In this document: one piece after another, positions 25,929-33,018 of the stretch
Layout of the letters: each line of letters opens with the position of its first letter
Numbering within the stretch: the first letter of the stretch is position 1
Assembly: GCA_019694575.1 (NCBI GenBank)
Contig: JAIBBR010000053.1
Coordinates: forward strand, 1-33,018
DNA length: 33,018 bases
Reading direction: 5' to 3'
DNA from: Myxococcaceae bacterium
GTDB taxonomy: Bacteria > Myxococcota > Myxococcia > Myxococcales > Myxococcaceae
The notes under the pieces: generated by a model
The model's input: the letters and a program-made list of their open reading frames with translations, nothing else
What the model was told of the DNA's origin: nothing
Database searches by the model: none
Position numbers and translations under genes: made by a program

Positions 25929-26111
25929 TTAGTCTCCTTGGCCCAAGGGAACTATCGCCGTCAGCAAGGCTGCGCAAGCCCATGAGCAGCCTGCCACTCG
26001 GAGCGTTGTGGCATCGGCTTTGACGAGAAAGTGGGACGCGCTGCGTGACATCGCGCCTTCGTGTTTCTTGGCTGTGGCGACCTCGCACTGATTAAACACA
26101 CTGGACTTCAT
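25929..26111 (-). CDS. Possible small ORF between rsmA and the thioredoxin-like gene
   Basis: A 60-codon frame starts with ATG 26111, which overlaps the rsmA stop as ATGA, and ends TAA 2 nt before ATG 25926, within the region carrying that gene's ribosome-binding site. The exact fit at both ends argues that it is, or was, a gene of this operon. The sequence (MKSSVFNQCEVATAKKHEGA...) resembles no family I can name with confidence, though its beginning could be a truncated cupin-type protein; a hydrophobic C-terminal part follows. It may be a degenerate remnant. Confidence 0.35.
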   Translation of the reverse strand: MKSSVFNQCEVATAKKHEGAMSRSASHFLVKADATTLRVAGCSWACAALLTAIVPLGQGD

Positions 26112-26944
26112 CTTTGAAAAAACCACGCCCGCTCGAGCGCGGCGAATTCTTCTACGGACAACGTTTCAGCGCGACGCTTTTCATCGATGGCACACGCAGC
26201 GAGCACCGCTTTCACGTCAACGCCTTCGCACAACGCTTTGTCACTGCGCAGCGAATTAGAAAGCGTCTTGCGGCGCTGCGCGAACGCCGCCTTCACGATT
26301 TTTCGAAAGCGCGCTTCGTCATTCACCGGTGCACGGGGAACCGGCAGGCGCGTCAGCCGCACCACCGCTGAATCGACTTTCGGCGGAGGGTGAAACAAGT
26401 GCGCCGGCACCAAGAAACAGTTTTCGACTTTGAAGCGCAAGCCGAGCAGCACCGAAAGAATGCCGTAATCGCGGTTACCCGGCGGCGCGGCCAGACGTTC
26501 GACCACTTCTTTTTGCAGAGTGAACACAGCGCGCTTCACGCTCGCGGGCTGCTCCAGCACTTCGAACAAAATCGAGCTGCTCAAGTGGTACGGCAAATTG
26601 CCCACCACCACGCATTCAGCCACTCCCGCCGCTTCGTCAAAGCGCACGTGGGCGGCGTTGCCTTCGACGATGGTGAGTCCTGGCAACGCCAAGTTTTTCA
26701 ACACGCGCACCATGTCGCGGTCGCGTTCAACGGCCACCACTTTGGCGCCGGTGGCAAGCAGCGCACGCGTCAGGTGCCCCAAGCCCGGGCCGAGCTCGAC
26801 GACGGTGTCACTGGCTTCCACTGCCATCGCTTCGACCAAGCGCTCGAGCACGCTTTCGTCTTCGAGAAAATTCTGGCCCCAGCTCTTCTTCGGCTTGAGC
26901 CCATGCTCGCGCAAGAGCTCAGCGGGAGAACGTGACGCGCTCAT
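26108..26944 (-). CDS. rsmA: 16S rRNA dimethyladenosine transferase RsmA (KsgA)
   Basis: RsmA dimethylates the two adjacent adenosines near the 3' end of 16S rRNA. The SAM-binding and catalytic parts are clear: GLKPKKSWGQNFL, VVELGPGLGHLTRAL, VVAVERDRDM, VVVGNLPYHLSSSILF (catalytic N-L-P-Y), FHPPPKVDSAVVRL, and the C-terminal AFAQRRKTLSNSL. At 278 residues it is full length. The ATG overlaps the tsaD stop as ATGA. Confidence 0.97.
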   Translation of the reverse strand: MSASRSPAELLREHGLKPKKSWGQNFLEDESVLERLVEAMAVEASDTVVELGPGLGHLTRALLATGAKVVAVERDRDMVRVLKNLALPGLTIVEGNAAHVRFDEAAGVAECVVVGNLPYHLSSSILFEVLEQPASVKRAVFTLQKEVVERLAAPPGNRDYGILSVLLGLRFKVENCFLVPAHLFHPPPKVDSAVVRLTRLPVPRAPVNDEARFRKIVKAAFAQRRKTLSNSLRSDKALCEGVDVKAVLAACAIDEKRRAETLSVEEFAALERAWFFQR

Positions 26945-27951
26945 GCCAACCGCCAGCTCGGGTCTGCGTCGAGAGACAATGGAGACGTCACCCCACGGCG
27001 AAACGCTTCGTACCCGGCCACGGCAATCATCGCTCCATTGTCAGTGCACAATTTTACGCTCGGCAAAAAGAGCCTGAGGCCATTTTCCGCGCAACGCTCT
27101 TGGGCGAGTTGTCGCAACCGCGAATTGGCGGCCACGCCTCCGCACATCACCACTTGTTTGGTACTCGAGCGTTTCACGGCGTTGATCATTTTCTGGGTGA
27201 GCGAATCGGCGACGGCTTCTTGAAACGAAGCGCACACGTCAGCCAGCGCTTGGCCCTGCGGCGCGCCGTGCTTCTGCACATGGTGCAGCACCGCGGTTTT
27301 CAACCCCGAGAAAGACCAGTCGACTTCGTCGGGTGCGGGCATCGCACGGGGAAAGCGATGAGCCTTCGGGTCGCCGTTTTGCGCCAGCTGATCAATCGGC
27401 ACACCACCGGGGTACGGCAGCCCCAAAACGCGCGCCACTTTGTCGTACGCCTCACCCGCCGCGTCGTCACGTGTGGTGCCCAGCCGCCGGTACTGGCCGA
27501 AAGCCGCCACTTCATAGAGCGTGGTGTGGCCGCCCGAAACGACCAGCCCAAAAAACGGAGGCTCTGGCCGCTCAGCCATTAACCGCGCCGCGAGCAAGTG
27601 CCCTTCCAAGTGATTCACTCCAATGAGCGGTCGCCCTTTCGCCAGCGCCATTGACTTAGCAGCTTGCACGCCCACCAAGAGCGCTCCCTGCAAACCGGGC
27701 CCGCTGGTGACGGCGATTTCGTCAACCGCGTCGAGCGTGACTTGTGCGCGTGAAAGCGCTTCTTGCATCACCGGAAAAAGCTGCATGACGTGGTTGCGGC
27801 TGGCGAGCTCAGGTACCACCCCACCCCAGCGGCGGTGAATGTCGATTTGCGTCGACACCACGTCGGCAAGCACTTCGCGGCCCTCGCGCACCAGCGCCAC
27901 CGCGGTTTCGTCGCACGACGTTTCAATGCCCAGGGTCAACACGCGTCGCAA
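26941..27951 (-). CDS. tsaD: tRNA N6-threonylcarbamoyladenosine transferase TsaD
   Basis: TsaD transfers the threonylcarbamoyl group to A37 of ANN-decoding tRNAs, together with TsaB/TsaE. The ASKHA signatures are complete: LGIETSCDETAVAL, VVPELASRNHV, TSGPGLQGALLVG, the metal-binding HLEGH, VVSGGHTTLYE, DDAAGEAYDKVARVLGLPYPGG and CGGVAANSRLR. The start is unclear: TTG 27951 or GTG 27942 are the only candidates before LGIETSC, and neither has a good ribosome-binding site; GTG 27942 fits family N-termini best. About 336 residues, normal length. It overlaps rsmA by 4 nt. Confidence 0.96.
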   Translation of the reverse strand: MRRVLTLGIETSCDETAVALVREGREVLADVVSTQIDIHRRWGGVVPELASRNHVMQLFPVMQEALSRAQVTLDAVDEIAVTSGPGLQGALLVGVQAAKSMALAKGRPLIGVNHLEGHLLAARLMAERPEPPFFGLVVSGGHTTLYEVAAFGQYRRLGTTRDDAAGEAYDKVARVLGLPYPGGVPIDQLAQNGDPKAHRFPRAMPAPDEVDWSFSGLKTAVLHHVQKHGAPQGQALADVCASFQEAVADSLTQKMINAVKRSSTKQVVMCGGVAANSRLRQLAQERCAENGLRLFLPSVKLCTDNGAMIAVAGYEAFRRGVTSPLSLDADPSWRLA

Positions 27952-27979: not shown

Positions 27980-28008
27980 AAAAGCGGCGGTTTCGCCCGA
28001 CTGCCGCT
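27980..28008 (-). terminator. Possible intrinsic terminator after the response-regulator gene
   Basis: On the minus strand AGCGGC (28008-28003) pairs with GCCGCT (27988-27983), a perfect 6-bp stem with a 14-nt loop, followed by TTTT. It overlaps the stop codon of the response-regulator gene and precedes tsaD. The loop is long, so strength is doubtful. Confidence 0.35.
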
Positions 28009-30745
28009 ACGGCCCGTTGGCGAGAATGGCACGCACTTCGTCAGCGGTGGCACCGTGCGGTTTCAGCTTCAAATATTCTTGAAATGGCTTTCGCGACTGC
28101 GCCATGCGGCCAATGTTTTGGTACGCCATACCCAACGCCAACCACGCTTGGGCATTGGTGCGTTCGGCTTTCACCGCTTCTTCAAGCAGTGGCAGTGCTT
28201 CGCGAAAGCCTGTTTCTGACATCACCAAAGAGATGCCCAGCCCGCTCTTCGCTTCTGCCGAGTCGGGGCTGAGCGCCAACGCTTTGCGGAAACTGGCGGT
28301 GGCGCTTTTCCACTTCTCGTTTTGAATTGCCAACTTGGCTTCGGCGAGCGCTTGCTCGAAACCGCCTTCACCGCCCGAGGGTAGGGCTGCCCCTGCGTCG
28401 ACGACCGCCGCCAGTTCCACCACGCCGGCATCGACAACGGGGGCCTTTGCGTCGACAGCTGCCGCGGCGACATCAACCGGGCCCGCGTCGACAACTGCGG
28501 CGGTACCCGCGTCAACAGGCACTTCTGCCACCACGGCCGCGCCGGCGTCTTCAGGGGCTGCGAGCGCTTCTTCGGCTGCAGGCACCGGCACCGCGCCAAC
28601 GTCGGCGGGTTGCCGCGTCATCAAATAAATTGCCGCCAGTCCCGCTCCTACCAGCAGGCTCACAATCACTCCTGAAGCCCAGCCGCCCGAGCGTGGCACC
28701 GGGTACTCGCCGGTGCCGGCCGCTGCCGCAATGACCGAGGGAGGCACTTCGACCGGCAGCGCTGGCGTGTGCTGTTCTCCGAAGAAGCCTTCTTCGAGAC
28801 GACGACGGGCGACTGGCGTGGGCCGCGGAGGCAGCTGCACAGGCGACGGCGTCGGAGGCGGAACACCATGGCCGGGGTACGGAGGCAACGCCAACAGCGG
28901 CGAATTGTCAGTACCCAACGGCGGCGTATTGCCCGTCTCGTTGCCTAGGCTTGAGGGCGGGGGAGACACCGGCGTGGGTCGCGGTGGTGGCAACGACGCG
29001 TCAGTCGCCAACGGCTCCACCGGTGAGGGCGGGCGAAGCGGCGGCAGGTCAATTTTTTCTATCGCTGCGCCTCCAAACACTGGCGGCTTGAGCGGCGACG
29101 AAACCTTCGCTTCGGGCGGGCTACTGCTGTTGTCTTTCGCCCATGAGCGTGAAGGGCTCCACAGCGGCTGTGGGCCTTGACCTTCCATCTCTGAGAAGGT
29201 GTCGAGGAGCTTGCTCTTGGCGCGCTCCATTTCGCTTAAGCCACCCGTAACGGCGGCTGACGACGGCAACACGGTGGTGCCCGACGCCACGACCGGGGGC
29301 ACCGCAGGCACTTGAAACGGCGGAAATTCAGGGTTGGTGACGGGCCCGCGCGCTCGGCGGCCGAAGTGGTGAACATCAGTAATTTTCGCAGGCGGCCCCA
29401 AGGGCACTGACCGACGCACCGGCGTGGGAATTTGCGGAAAAGGCGGTGCCGCAGGTTCGGGCGGGGCCGCTTCGACGGGGTGTTGTGGGGGCGGCAACTC
29501 CGCGGCGGCTGACACGGCAGGAGGCGGCGGCGTGGCGCGTGGGGCCGGCGCTTGGGGCGTCACCAAAGTCGGTTGCGCCTGTGGAATGACGGGTGGCGGC
29601 GTCGCCATGGGCGCTTGAGAAGCCAGAGGCAACAGCTCGGGCATTTCGGGCTCGGCTGAGGCGACTTCTTGCGCCACAAAGGCTTCGGGTTTCATCACCG
29701 GCGCCTGCGTGCTTGGCAATGGCACAGGCGGCGGCGCCGACGGCTTGGGCGGTAGCGCATTGAGCCATTCTTCGATACCGGGCTTACCGGGCAGCTCTTC
29801 TTGTGGCGAGCCGACTTCGCGAATCAACCCTTCGAAGAAAAGTTTGGAAACAATGCCCAACGCGGCCAGGTCTTCGAAGTCAGAATCGTCGACCACTCTC
29901 GACAACGAGCGCCGCCCATCGAAAAGGCGCAGCAGGCCGTTCACCTCGTCGGGAATTTCAGAAAGCCGCTCTGACAGCTGGGGGTAATCGAGCTCGAAGA
30001 CCGTCTCGAGCGGAGGCAGCTGCTCGAGCATGCGGCCCCACTCATCGAGCCGACGCATGCCTTCCATCAGCAGGGCCTGGGTCGACATCTCGATGCGCTC
30101 GGGGCGATCGACCGCCTGAAACTGCAGGTCGAACGTGCCCTCGAACGTATTGAGCATTCGATAGAAGGCGTTTTCGCCCGACAACCGGCCCAGCTCGGCG
30201 TCAATCACCTTGCCTTCGCGAAAAAAAATCAGCCCGGCGCGCTCTCCGTCGAGCCGAATGGTGCCCGTCTTACGGCCCAGCTCGAAGGTCTGCACCAAGT
30301 CGACCACGCCCATGTCAGACAAATTGCCCGCGAAGCCGGCGCGCACTTCTTTCTTCTCGAGCCGTTCTTTCTCGACCTTCTGAAGAATCATCTTCAGGCG
30401 GGTAACGATTTCTTTGATGTAAATCGGCTTGGTCAGGTAGTCGTCGCCGCCCAGCTCGAGGCCGCGCACCTTGAATTCCACCGACTTCTGATTGGTGAGA
30501 AAAACGAAGGGAATGTGGCGAAAGCGCTCGTCGCTCTTGAGCACTTTGCACAACTCGAAGCCGTCTACCTCGGCCATCTTGGTGTCAGACAGCACCAGGT
30601 CAGGTGGACTGATTTGCACCTTTTCAAGCGCGTCTTTGCCGTGAATGGCCGTGGTGACAGAAAAGCCAGCCTTCTTCAGGCTGACCTCCATTACACGCAG
30701 ACTTTTCGCGTCTCCATCGACGAGGAGGAGATGCTGCTTCGCCAC
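28007..30745 (-). CDS. Response regulator receiver-DUF4388 (PATAN)-TM-TPR protein
   Basis: A 912-residue multi-domain protein. Residues 1-120 are a receiver with phospho-acceptor Asp54 (LVLSDTKM), Thr84 and Lys106; the acidic pair is D10/D12. Residues ~136-235 are a DUF4388/PATAN domain ([20 protein letters not shown]...). Residues ~235-330 form a helical domain, ~330-685 a long Pro-rich linker, ~690-710 one TM helix ([20 protein letters not shown]), 732-786 an Ala/Val linker with repeated V-D-A-G, and ~795-895 TPR repeats. The receiver should be cytoplasmic and the TPR part outside. The start is GTG 30745 with AGAGG about 10 nt upstream. The sensor kinase is not in the window. It is divergent from the PilZ gene. 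Confidence 0.88.
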
Positions 30746-30882
30746 GGTTTTGAGCCTCTCTGTGCCCCTTAACGACTACGGCCAGACCGTATGATTTCGC
30801 CGGCACGGCAAGAGTGTCAACGTTTCATCACACGGCTGCGCTTGACATCTTCGGCGCTTGGCTGCTGACTGCGCCCCACCTT
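30746..30882. promoter_or_regulatory. Divergent promoter region between response regulator and PilZ gene
   Basis: Two -35-like hexamers face away from each other: TGTCAA (30815-30820; TTGACA on the minus strand) and TTGACA (30842-30847, plus strand), forming an inverted repeat with a 21-bp centre. Matching -10 elements are poor (ATCATA-like on the minus strand at a 19-nt spacing, none convincing on the plus strand), so this is only a candidate. Confidence 0.3.
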
Positions 30883-31218
30883 ATGCCTGCTTACCACCGA
30901 CGACATGTGCGCAAGGCTTTGGAGGTCGACTTCAAAGCCCTCGAAGCAACCGGGGCTGGCGAGTTGCTCTTCACTGGAGCCGATTTGTCAGAAGGAGGCA
31001 CCTTTCTGAAAAGCGATTTGCTCTTGGAGCAAGGTGACGGGCTTTCGCTGCGTTTCTCGATACCTGGCGCGATTGAGCCGGTGCAGACACAAGCCCGCGT
31101 GGCCTGGGTGCGGCGCTTTCCCGGGGTCGATGAAGTCAGCGGCATGGGCATTGAATTCGTCGCGATGAACGACACCGATCGCCAGACGCTGCTCAAATAC
31201 CTGTTGGCCGAGTCGTAA
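30883..31218 (+). CDS. PilZ domain protein (c-di-GMP receptor)
   Basis: A 111-residue stand-alone PilZ domain. The two c-di-GMP-binding motifs are recognisable: the arginine cluster Y-H-R-R-H-V-R-K near the N-terminus (R-x-x-x-R) and D-L-S-E-G-G (D-x-S-x-x-G), followed by strands of the barrel (LSLRFSIPGAIEPVQTQARV, AWVRRF, GMGIEFV). The frame is open 23 codons upstream, but ATG 30883 directly before the PilZ N-terminus is the natural start; the ribosome-binding site is weak. It converges on the J-domain gene, 36 bp away. Confidence 0.85.
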   Translation: MPAYHRRHVRKALEVDFKALEATGAGELLFTGADLSEGGTFLKSDLLLEQGDGLSLRFSIPGAIEPVQTQARVAWVRRFPGVDEVSGMGIEFVAMNDTDRQTLLKYLLAES

Positions 31219-31254: not shown

Positions 31255-33018
31255 TCAGCGGAAAAAGCCCTTACCGTCTTTCTTCTTACGCATTTCAATC
31301 AGCCGCAGCTCTTGGTTTGCTTCTAAGTGCTTGGCGTTGATGCGCACCGCTTCACGAAAATGTTTCTCGGCACGGTCAACTTCGCCTTCGACGCGGGCAA
31401 TCACTCCCAGCTGGTAGTGCGCGCGGTCGCAATTGGGGTCGAGCTTGAGCGCTTGGGTCATCATCTGCTTGGCCGAGCCAATTTCGGCCTTGCGGGTGGG
31501 GTCTGAATAAATCGCCCACGCGCGTGCCGCCAACGAGTTGGCCTTGTTGTCGAGCGCATGCGCCTTGGCGAAATGATCTTCGGCCTGGCGGTAATCGCGT
31601 TTCTTGAAAAAAACCTCGCCCATGCGAGCCAAGTCGTCGGGGTTGCTACCCGCGGCAGCCGGCTTGGCGACGGGAGCGCCCGGCGCTTTGCCCGACGCCA
31701 TGGCGCTCATGTACGAAGCGCGCTTGGCGTCATCGTAGAGCTGCTCGTAGGCGTCGCGAATCGCCTCGAAGAGGCTGTTCATCTTCGGAGCGAGGTGGGG
31801 CAACGTCGAGGGTAAGCGGTCGGGGTGATAAATTTTGGCGAGCGAAAGAAATGCTTGTTTGACCTGATCTTTCGGAGCGCCGACCGGCAAACCGAGCACA
31901 GCGTACAGTTCACGGTTCTTCTGCAGCGCTTCGTAGCGTTTCTCGATTTGGTCGGCGACTTGTTGGTCAGCGCCTCCCGCGGGTGGAGGCGTCGCGGTTT
32001 TGCCGACCGGAGCAGGCGTGGCGGCGCGGCCTACCGGAGGCGGCGTGGCGGTACGCCCGACCGGTGCCGGAGTCAGGGTGCGACCTGCTGGCGCAGGCGT
32101 AGGGCTGACTGGCACGGCGCCCTGCATTTCGGGGCGCTGTGGAATGGTGCCCAAGTTCTCCATCGCGCGGCGCAACAAGCGCTGGCGGCGTTGCCGGGCG
32201 GCTTCAGCGGAATCAGAGGGGTCGTCTGCCAAATCTTCCTCGCTAAGACGAATTTCCTCCGTCGCAGTTTCAGGTTCTACCACTGTCTCGACGGTGGCCT
32301 CCACCACGGGGGTGTCCCAAACGCCTTCATCAGTGGCTTGGGCAACCAAAGCTTCGAGGTCAGAGTCGACCCGTTGTAGGGCTTCTTCGAAAGAATTACT
32401 CGTGGTCTGAACCACTTCGACTGCTGAAGGCTCGACGATTTTCCACAAATCGCCGTCGCCTGAGTCTGCGACGGCCGACTGGGGGCCCAAAATAAGCGGC
32501 TTGGGAACAGCGCTGGCGGGCGCCGCCGACACCTGGGTCGCCGCGAGGTGAATTGGCTTTAAACCCTTCACCTCTTTGGGCAGCTCGAGATTGGGAGCGG
32601 TCTTGTCAACATCGACAACCACACTTGGCTCTTCGGCTTCAATGGTGGCGCTCGACACCGAACGGCGCAGCGCTTCGTTCAGCTCGCGCAGCAAATCAGA
32701 CTGCTCGCGGTGTTTGGCGAGGTTGTCGCGGTCAGATACGGCTGCGGCGTCGGCTACTTTCGCCAACTGCAACGGCTGGGTGGCCTCAACATCAGGCGTA
32801 CCGGTAATCCACCCCTCGTCCATCGTGGCATTGAGCAACGCTTCGCGGTCAGCTGCGATGCGCGCTTCTTCTTCTGCTCTCCGCCGTTCCTCAGCCAGCC
32901 GCAGCTCTTCTTCTGCTCTCCGCCGCTCCTCAGCCAGCCGTGCTTCTTCTTCTGCTCTCCGCCGCTCCTCAGCCAGACGGGCTTCTTCTTCTGCTCTCCG
33001 CCGCTCTTCAGCCAGACG
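31255..33018 (-). CDS. J-domain/TPR protein with charged helical repeats (5' end outside window)
   Basis: The frame runs from the stop at 31255 to the right edge without a start; 587 residues are visible. Order: four 13-residue repeats R-L-A-E-E-R-R-R-A-E-E-E-A at the edge (one ends in L), about 190 acidic low-complexity residues, five 9-residue T-x-T-P-x-P-V-G-R repeats, a J domain (about 31705-31914) with the intact H-P-D motif in AKIYHPDRL, an Ala/Pro linker, and TPR helices to the C-terminus. J domains stimulate Hsp70 (DnaK) ATPase. ATG 32823 and TTG 32838 are internal, since the repeats upstream are in frame and well formed. Related J-TPR proteins are common in Myxococcota; the client is unknown. 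Confidence 0.85.
   Translation of the reverse strand, partial: RLAEERRRAEEEARLAEERRRAEEEARLAEERRRAEEELRLAEERRRAEEEARIAADREALLNATMDEGWITGTPDVEATQPLQLAKVADAAAVSDRDNLAKHREQSDLLRELNEALRRSVSSATIEAEEPSVVVDVDKTAPNLELPKEVKGLKPIHLAATQVSAAPASAVPKPLILGPQSAVADSGDGDLWKIVEPSAVEVVQTTSNSFEEALQRVDSDLEALVAQATDEGVWDTPVVEATVETVVEPETATEEIRLSEEDLADDPSDSAEAARQRRQRLLRRAMENLGTIPQRPEMQGAVPVSPTPAPAGRTLTPAPVGRTATPPPVGRAATPAPVGKTATPPPAGGADQQVADQIEKRYEALQKNRELYAVLGLPVGAPKDQVKQAFLSLAKIYHPDRLPSTLPHLAPKMNSLFEAIRDAYEQLYDDAKRASYMSAMASGKAPGAPVAKPAAAGSNPDDLARMGEVFFKKRDYRQAEDHFAKAHALDNKANSLAARAWAIYSDPTRKAEIGSAKQMMTQALKLDPNCDRAHYQLGVIARVEGEVDRAEKHFREAVRINAKHLEANQELRLIEMRKKKDGKGFFR
31972..32106 (-). repeat. Five tandem 27-bp repeats coding for T-x-T-P-x-P-V-G-R
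   Basis: Five consecutive 9-residue units: SPTPAPAGR, TLTPAPVGR, TATPPPVGR, AATPAPVGK, TATPPPAGG. They form a Pro/Thr linker immediately before the J domain. The DNA copies have diverged but stay in frame. Confidence 0.85.
32863..33018 (-). repeat. Four tandem 39-bp repeats coding for a charged helix
   Basis: The period is exactly 39 bp: the CTGCTCT landmark recurs at 32874, 32913, 32952 and 32991. Each copy codes for R-L-A-E-E-R-R-R-A-E-E-E-A in the J-domain protein frame, with only a few base changes. The array reaches the window edge, so the copy number is at least four. Confidence 0.95.

Follow-up and report, generated by a model that had tools for sequence, protein, structure and literature searches.

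A typical response regulator is soluble and relays a phosphoryl signal; the question raised by this locus is whether one such protein has become built into the inner membrane and, if so, what its receiver does there. The window, that is, the whole stretch of 33,018 nucleotides analyzed here (contig JAIBBR010000053.1, assembly GCA_019694575.1, of a Myxococcaceae bacterium), encodes a protein that the original prediction took for a regulator with receiver and PATAN domains at its N-terminus, a Pro-rich linker of ~350 residues, a transmembrane (TM) helix, and tetratricopeptide repeats (TPRs) outside the cytoplasm, together passing a phosphorylation signal across the membrane. The architectural part of that reading, a receiver–PATAN protein that most probably spans the membrane and has its TPRs outside, is supported by the analysis described below, but the transmembrane phosphorylation signal is not.

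The limits of the regulator ORF are exact, with the GTG start codon at 30745 and the stop at 28007; AGAGG, a Shine–Dalgarno-like sequence, lies 9 nt on the 5′ side of the start, and the opening M-A-K-Q-H is common to the relatives in the alignment. The two N-terminal domains are both recognized by Pfam, PATAN (DUF4388) above its gathering score, together with a TPR match at ~801–900 (4.6e-11), and no Pfam family is reported for the conserved extension that follows PATAN (Table 1). Across the whole 912 residues, Pfam reports no DNA-binding family, and HisKA and HATPase domains are absent. The Pro-rich linker proved slightly longer than had been foreseen and is poorly conserved save for short islands, among them KPGIEEWL and YPGHGVPP.

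Table 1 Features of the regulator gene and its neighbors in the window.
Feature	Coordinates	Strand	Residues	Basis or remark
Regulator, whole gene	28007..30745	(-)	1–912 (912 aa)	Receiver-PATAN-extension-Pro-rich linker-TM-acidic linker-TPR
Receiver domain	30395..30727	(-)	7–117	Pfam Response_reg, 2.3e-21
PATAN domain (DUF4388)	30038..30331	(-)	139–236	Pfam, 2.2e-22; 79.8 bits vs gathering cut-off 25
Conserved helical extension	29810..30037	(-)	237–312	Many residues invariant
Pro-rich linker	28676..29809	(-)	313–690	Predicted disordered and cytoplasmic; ~380 residues, ~24% Pro
Linker islands			321–328, 551–560, 621–630	KPGIEEWL at 321–328; the other two of 10 residues each
Predicted TM helix	28616..28675	(-)	691–710	20 residues; predicted N-in/C-out
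Acidic linker	28367..28615	(-)	711–793	Predicted periplasmic; VDAG repeated, net charge about -13
TPR domain	28016..28366	(-)	794–910	Predicted periplasmic; three TPRs and capping helix
TsaD	26941..27951	(-)		Directly downstream; conserved neighbor (Pfam, synteny)
RsmA/KsgA	26108..26944	(-)		Next after TsaD; conserved neighbor (Pfam, synteny)
PilZ-domain protein	30814..31218	(+)		Divergent from regulator, 68 bp between starts; Pfam
DnaJ-TPR protein	31255..33018	(-)		Upstream, cut by contig end; Pfam, relatives

The case for a membrane helix comes from comparison within the family rather than from the window protein by itself. In the latter, the hydrophobic segment (~691–710) is uncharged and has a Kyte–Doolittle value of 2.11; when the protein's own Ala/Val/Pro-rich linker is shuffled, 164 of 5000 shuffles (3.3%) reach the observed hydrophobicity, and the Lys and Arg residues flanking the helix are balanced 1:1 (one per side, within 15 residues). 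Taken alone, the window protein has an unremarkable hydrophobicity and offers modest evidence for a membrane location, and the frequency of matching shuffles would suit a soluble protein in which the stretch is not a membrane helix. A scan of genome contigs, however, yielded 68 loci, nearly all from Myxococcota, and the same domain order, whose occurrence in relatives had been proposed as a check, is present in 55 other complete proteins of this phylum. In all 56 complete proteins, the window protein included, a single hydrophobic segment is found upstream of the TPRs, at a distance of 86–198 residues, with Kyte–Doolittle values of 1.29–2.99 and a core charge of at most one, and for 24 of these proteins none of the shuffles attains its hydrophobicity. 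The N-terminal side of the segment carries on average 2.73 Lys/Arg within 10 residues, against 0.95 on the C-terminal side, and is the richer of the two in 48/56 proteins (15 residues), the Wilcoxon p value of 2e-10 for this asymmetry being overstated, since the 56 rows are related to one another. In the AlphaFold model of the C-terminal part (alignment of 42 proteins), a lone helix (691–709) is followed by ~80 disordered residues and then by a TPR fold of seven helices (pLDDT ~98), separate from the lone helix and matching TPR proteins in the PDB. Against the conserved position, the charge asymmetry, and the isolation of the predicted helix, a soluble protein is the least probable of the readings considered here.

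These three lines of evidence point very probably to an N-in/C-out topology, with one pass through the inner membrane and the TPRs outside the cytoplasm, as had been proposed; a conserved helix (56/56) and a positive cytoplasmic flank, the marks of such a single-pass protein, are seen at the level of the family. In addition, the residues that follow the helix are acidic, with a net charge of -13 in the window protein. In six complete proteins from relatives like Sandaracinus and other Polyangia (L059, L061, L063, L065, L068, and L070), the C-terminal domain contains exactly two Cys residues, at alignable places in the rows shown, as a disulfide would need, which fits an oxidizing compartment for this domain. 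Because Cys is rare throughout, its low frequency in the C-terminal half was not retained as topology evidence, and the paired Cys residues alone were kept.

The receiver is predicted to fold in an ordinary way but has an unusual active site. In the AlphaFold model of the N-terminal part (alignment of 38 proteins; mean pLDDT 83), the receiver, the PATAN domain (pLDDT mostly ~90), and a further helical part extend to residue ~312, and the modeled receiver matches CheY/PhoB receivers on comparison with the PDB. For the PATAN region, no relative was found among the sequences of solved structures. The window receiver has D10 (DD1), the phospho-site D54, T84, Y103, and K106, so that the phospho-acceptor Asp, the Thr/Ser, and the Lys of a canonical regulator are all present; of the two acidic metal-binding residues, however, only D10 is retained, since G11 occupies the place of DD2. 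The DD2 position is non-acidic in 55/56 proteins (Gly in 43, Ala in 9, Ser in 2, Gln in 1, and Asp in 1), compared with Asp in 36/37 receivers sampled from the same genome, all 38 of which have Asp at the phospho-site; this sample of 38 aligned rows, one gapped at DD2, was drawn from the best-scoring Pfam matches and hence leans canonical. In a 2025 review (PMC12632262), a pseudo-receiver is defined as a receiver missing any one of five active-site residues, and DD2 is non-acidic in about 80% of such proteins. By this definition, the missing DD2 makes the regulator a pseudo-receiver protein.

Residue 54 is Asp or Glu in 67/67 proteins, with Glu in 13 of them (L006, L008–L011, L014, L016, L025–L027, L032, L036, and L057). 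A single Asp-to-Glu change is the minimum required on the tree, where these proteins form one group with a support of 78/74, and the complete members of this E54 clade retain the entire architecture. Glu at this site can mimic phosphorylation, and Ile at K+2, found in the window protein at residue 108, is among the residues favoring active CheY conformations (PMC12632262); a PhoB receiver altered at the two matching positions (D10A/D53E) has been deposited as constitutively active (2jb9). The loss of DD2, the E54 clade, the K+2 Ile, and the PhoB parallel together make ordinary phosphorylation improbable as the working mode, and, judging from sequence, the receiver probably does not operate in this way.

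A working phospho-switch nevertheless deserves consideration, in which an unlinked kinase would phosphorylate D54, with D10 and D12 holding the metal, and thereby alter binding by the cytoplasmic half, the signal ending in the cytoplasm. D12 is invariant (56/56) and might substitute for DD2; T/S84, Y103, and K106 are kept across the 56 proteins; and two-component proteins are plentiful in the genome as a whole (116 receiver matches). On the other hand, DD2 is a direct metal ligand, an E54 clade exists, and the T+1 residue is Asn or Ser in nearly all 56 proteins, compared with mostly Ala or Gly in receivers (PMC12632262). Moreover, the suggestion that genome context would reveal the cognate kinase was not borne out, a domain search finding no histidine kinase among the window proteins scanned. 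We therefore regard such a switch as unlikely, though the most credible of the alternatives to the reading developed below.

In Myxococcaceae and Archangiaceae, the usual gene order is that of the window, namely, the DnaJ-TPR gene, the divergent PilZ gene, the regulator, tsaD, and rsmA; the last three are still together in several more distant relatives, and the PilZ gene lies beside the regulator in many relatives and was not found there in Myxococcus and Corallococcus. Complete relatives of the DnaJ-TPR protein measure 914–1706 aa (full-length example, L035:681-5801) and have a weak PATAN-like N-terminus, and two of the three complete ones contain a very long coiled-coil-like repeat of the EEARLA type, greatly variable in length. 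A HAMP-HisKA-HATPase kinase two genes upstream of the regulator at one distant locus (L053) and an NtrC-like regulator, recognized by eye on the opposite strand ~3 kb upstream at several other loci, were not taken as cognate partners.

The original proposal that cytoplasmic phosphorylation is passed through the helix to the TPR domain and periplasmic partners draws on the predicted placement of the receiver on one side of the membrane and of the TPRs on the other. It meets two difficulties. The receiver is a pseudo-receiver, and the single helix is preceded by ~380 and followed by ~85 or more disordered residues, both modeled ends of the Pro-rich linker having a pLDDT near or below 60. Disorder on both sides of the helix leaves no rigid path by which a conformational change of the receiver could reach the TPRs, and only clustering or relocation could transmit a signal; this mechanism is accordingly very improbable.

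A signal running the opposite way is scarcely easier to sustain. ToxR/CadC-like transmembrane transcription regulators have a cytoplasmic N-terminal effector, one helix, and a periplasmic C-terminus, as predicted for the present regulator, and by analogy periplasmic TPRs could bind an envelope ligand and so recruit or release the cytoplasmic PATAN end, regulation by location being suited to a receiver resembling constitutively active forms. However, the ToxR/CadC-like proteins lack a receiver and possess a domain for DNA binding, whereas in the regulator a receiver is present and Pfam finds no DNA-binding family; rigid coupling is again absent, and the C-terminal part is poorly conserved from clade to clade, with a mean column identity of 27%. 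We consider an outside-in device of this kind quite unlikely.

The best explanation, to which we assign a rough probability of 0.55, is that the regulator is a two-ended membrane tether, or scaffold, with a pseudo-receiver. According to this proposal, the pseudo-receiver and PATAN would be held in the cytoplasm on the flexible Pro-rich tether and the TPR domain in the periplasm on the flexible acidic one. The TPRs would bind an envelope complex or a peptide there, and a cytoplasmic partner captured by the receiver–PATAN end would in this way be held at a particular place on the membrane. The receiver would then work by its shape and by contacts with other proteins, with phosphorylation of the Asp playing at most a secondary part. 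At 0.36 nm per residue, the cytoplasmic linker would have a contour length of ~130 nm and the periplasmic linker one of ~30 nm, which suits a tether letting both ends reach for partners. Counted against the scaffold reading are the presence of D54, T84, and K106 together in the window protein, the unfailing acid at position 54 and the invariant D12, as well as the weak hydrophobicity of the window helix with its one basic residue per side.

As the inner partner, a motor ATPase of the PilB kind may be the first candidate, because PATAN is reported to bind the pilus motor PilB in Synechocystis (PMC10519157), and because two PATAN proteins of Myxococcus xanthus, MXAN_3211 and MXAN_4965, which share this domain and a Myxococcales origin with the regulator, were found in Myxococcales to occur together with SgmX, a regulator of pili (PMC11580455). 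PilB was found in 21/21 genomes searched (20 above its cut-off), so that co-occurrence with pili is uninformative; GltE, searched as the gliding marker, was above its cut-off in 17 of the 21, and this profile supported no conclusion either.

The architecture is worth comparing with those of other atypical regulators. The cyanobacterial PATAN–receiver regulators of Synechocystis (PixG, PilG, and TaxP2) likewise combine the two domains in one protein, but with PATAN N-terminal, whereas here the receiver comes first, followed by PATAN, the Pro-rich linker, the membrane helix, and the TPRs. FrzS of M. xanthus, a pseudo-response regulator, resembles the present one in having an N-terminal receiver without critical residues and acts by partner binding (PMC11580455), with a large coiled coil where the regulator has PATAN, helix, and TPRs. 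For the MetOD3 response regulators of methanogens, passages of PMC5847659 describe a membrane-anchored output, a likeness to the regulator, although the output domain and the organisms are different and these passages do not mention a periplasmic TPR domain. The NCBIfam matches listed are to receiver domains and fall far below their cut-offs, and none names the regulator family; the literature search found no paper on this family or on a "transmembrane response regulator", nor one for GltJ as an architectural comparison. The regulator can be classed as atypical, with a receiver tied to a membrane anchor and with TPRs that are predicted to lie in the periplasm.

Several observations on individual relatives may be added. 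At L064, the gene is split just before the membrane helix into two ORFs, 134–2278 (receiver–PATAN half) and 2296–2997 (TM–TPR half), which may be real or a sequencing frameshift. The record at L030 (BNCN01000011.1), titled Comamonas sp. KCTC 72670, groups on the tree with M. xanthus and M. vastator and, given this position, looks misnamed or contaminated. The genome of the window also encodes a second receiver–hydrophobic helix–TPR protein (L003:349-2520, contig C5; 723 aa, 23% identity), in which E-A-D replaces the usual acid pair of the receiver and no PATAN is called by Pfam. PATAN domains occur at about 13 places in the same genome (L072–L085), and their diverse partner domains, as read by eye, include receiver, DnaJ-TPR, and FHA-like ones.

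Altogether, the regulator family, present in this myxobacterium and most of its relatives across Myxococcota, M. xanthus included (strain AM003, L035), attaches a receiver that lacks the usual metal site to a membrane anchor bearing a folded domain beyond the membrane. The control of pseudo-receiver activity in bacteria is still an open question (PMC12632262). Because related lineages carry this conserved protein with either D54 or E54, it provides a direct test of the importance of the phospho-site, in a phylum that includes a genetic model organism. Tentatively, and with less confidence than in the scaffold role itself, we speculate that these proteins may represent a class of pseudo-response regulators, present throughout the phylum, that span the membrane and serve as permanently "on" tethers between a PATAN-bound machine in the cytoplasm, e.g., a motor for pili or secretion, and a complex in the periplasm. 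The phosphomimetic Glu fixed in one clade would then be a natural counterpart of the engineered PhoB D10A/D53E, which is constitutively active.
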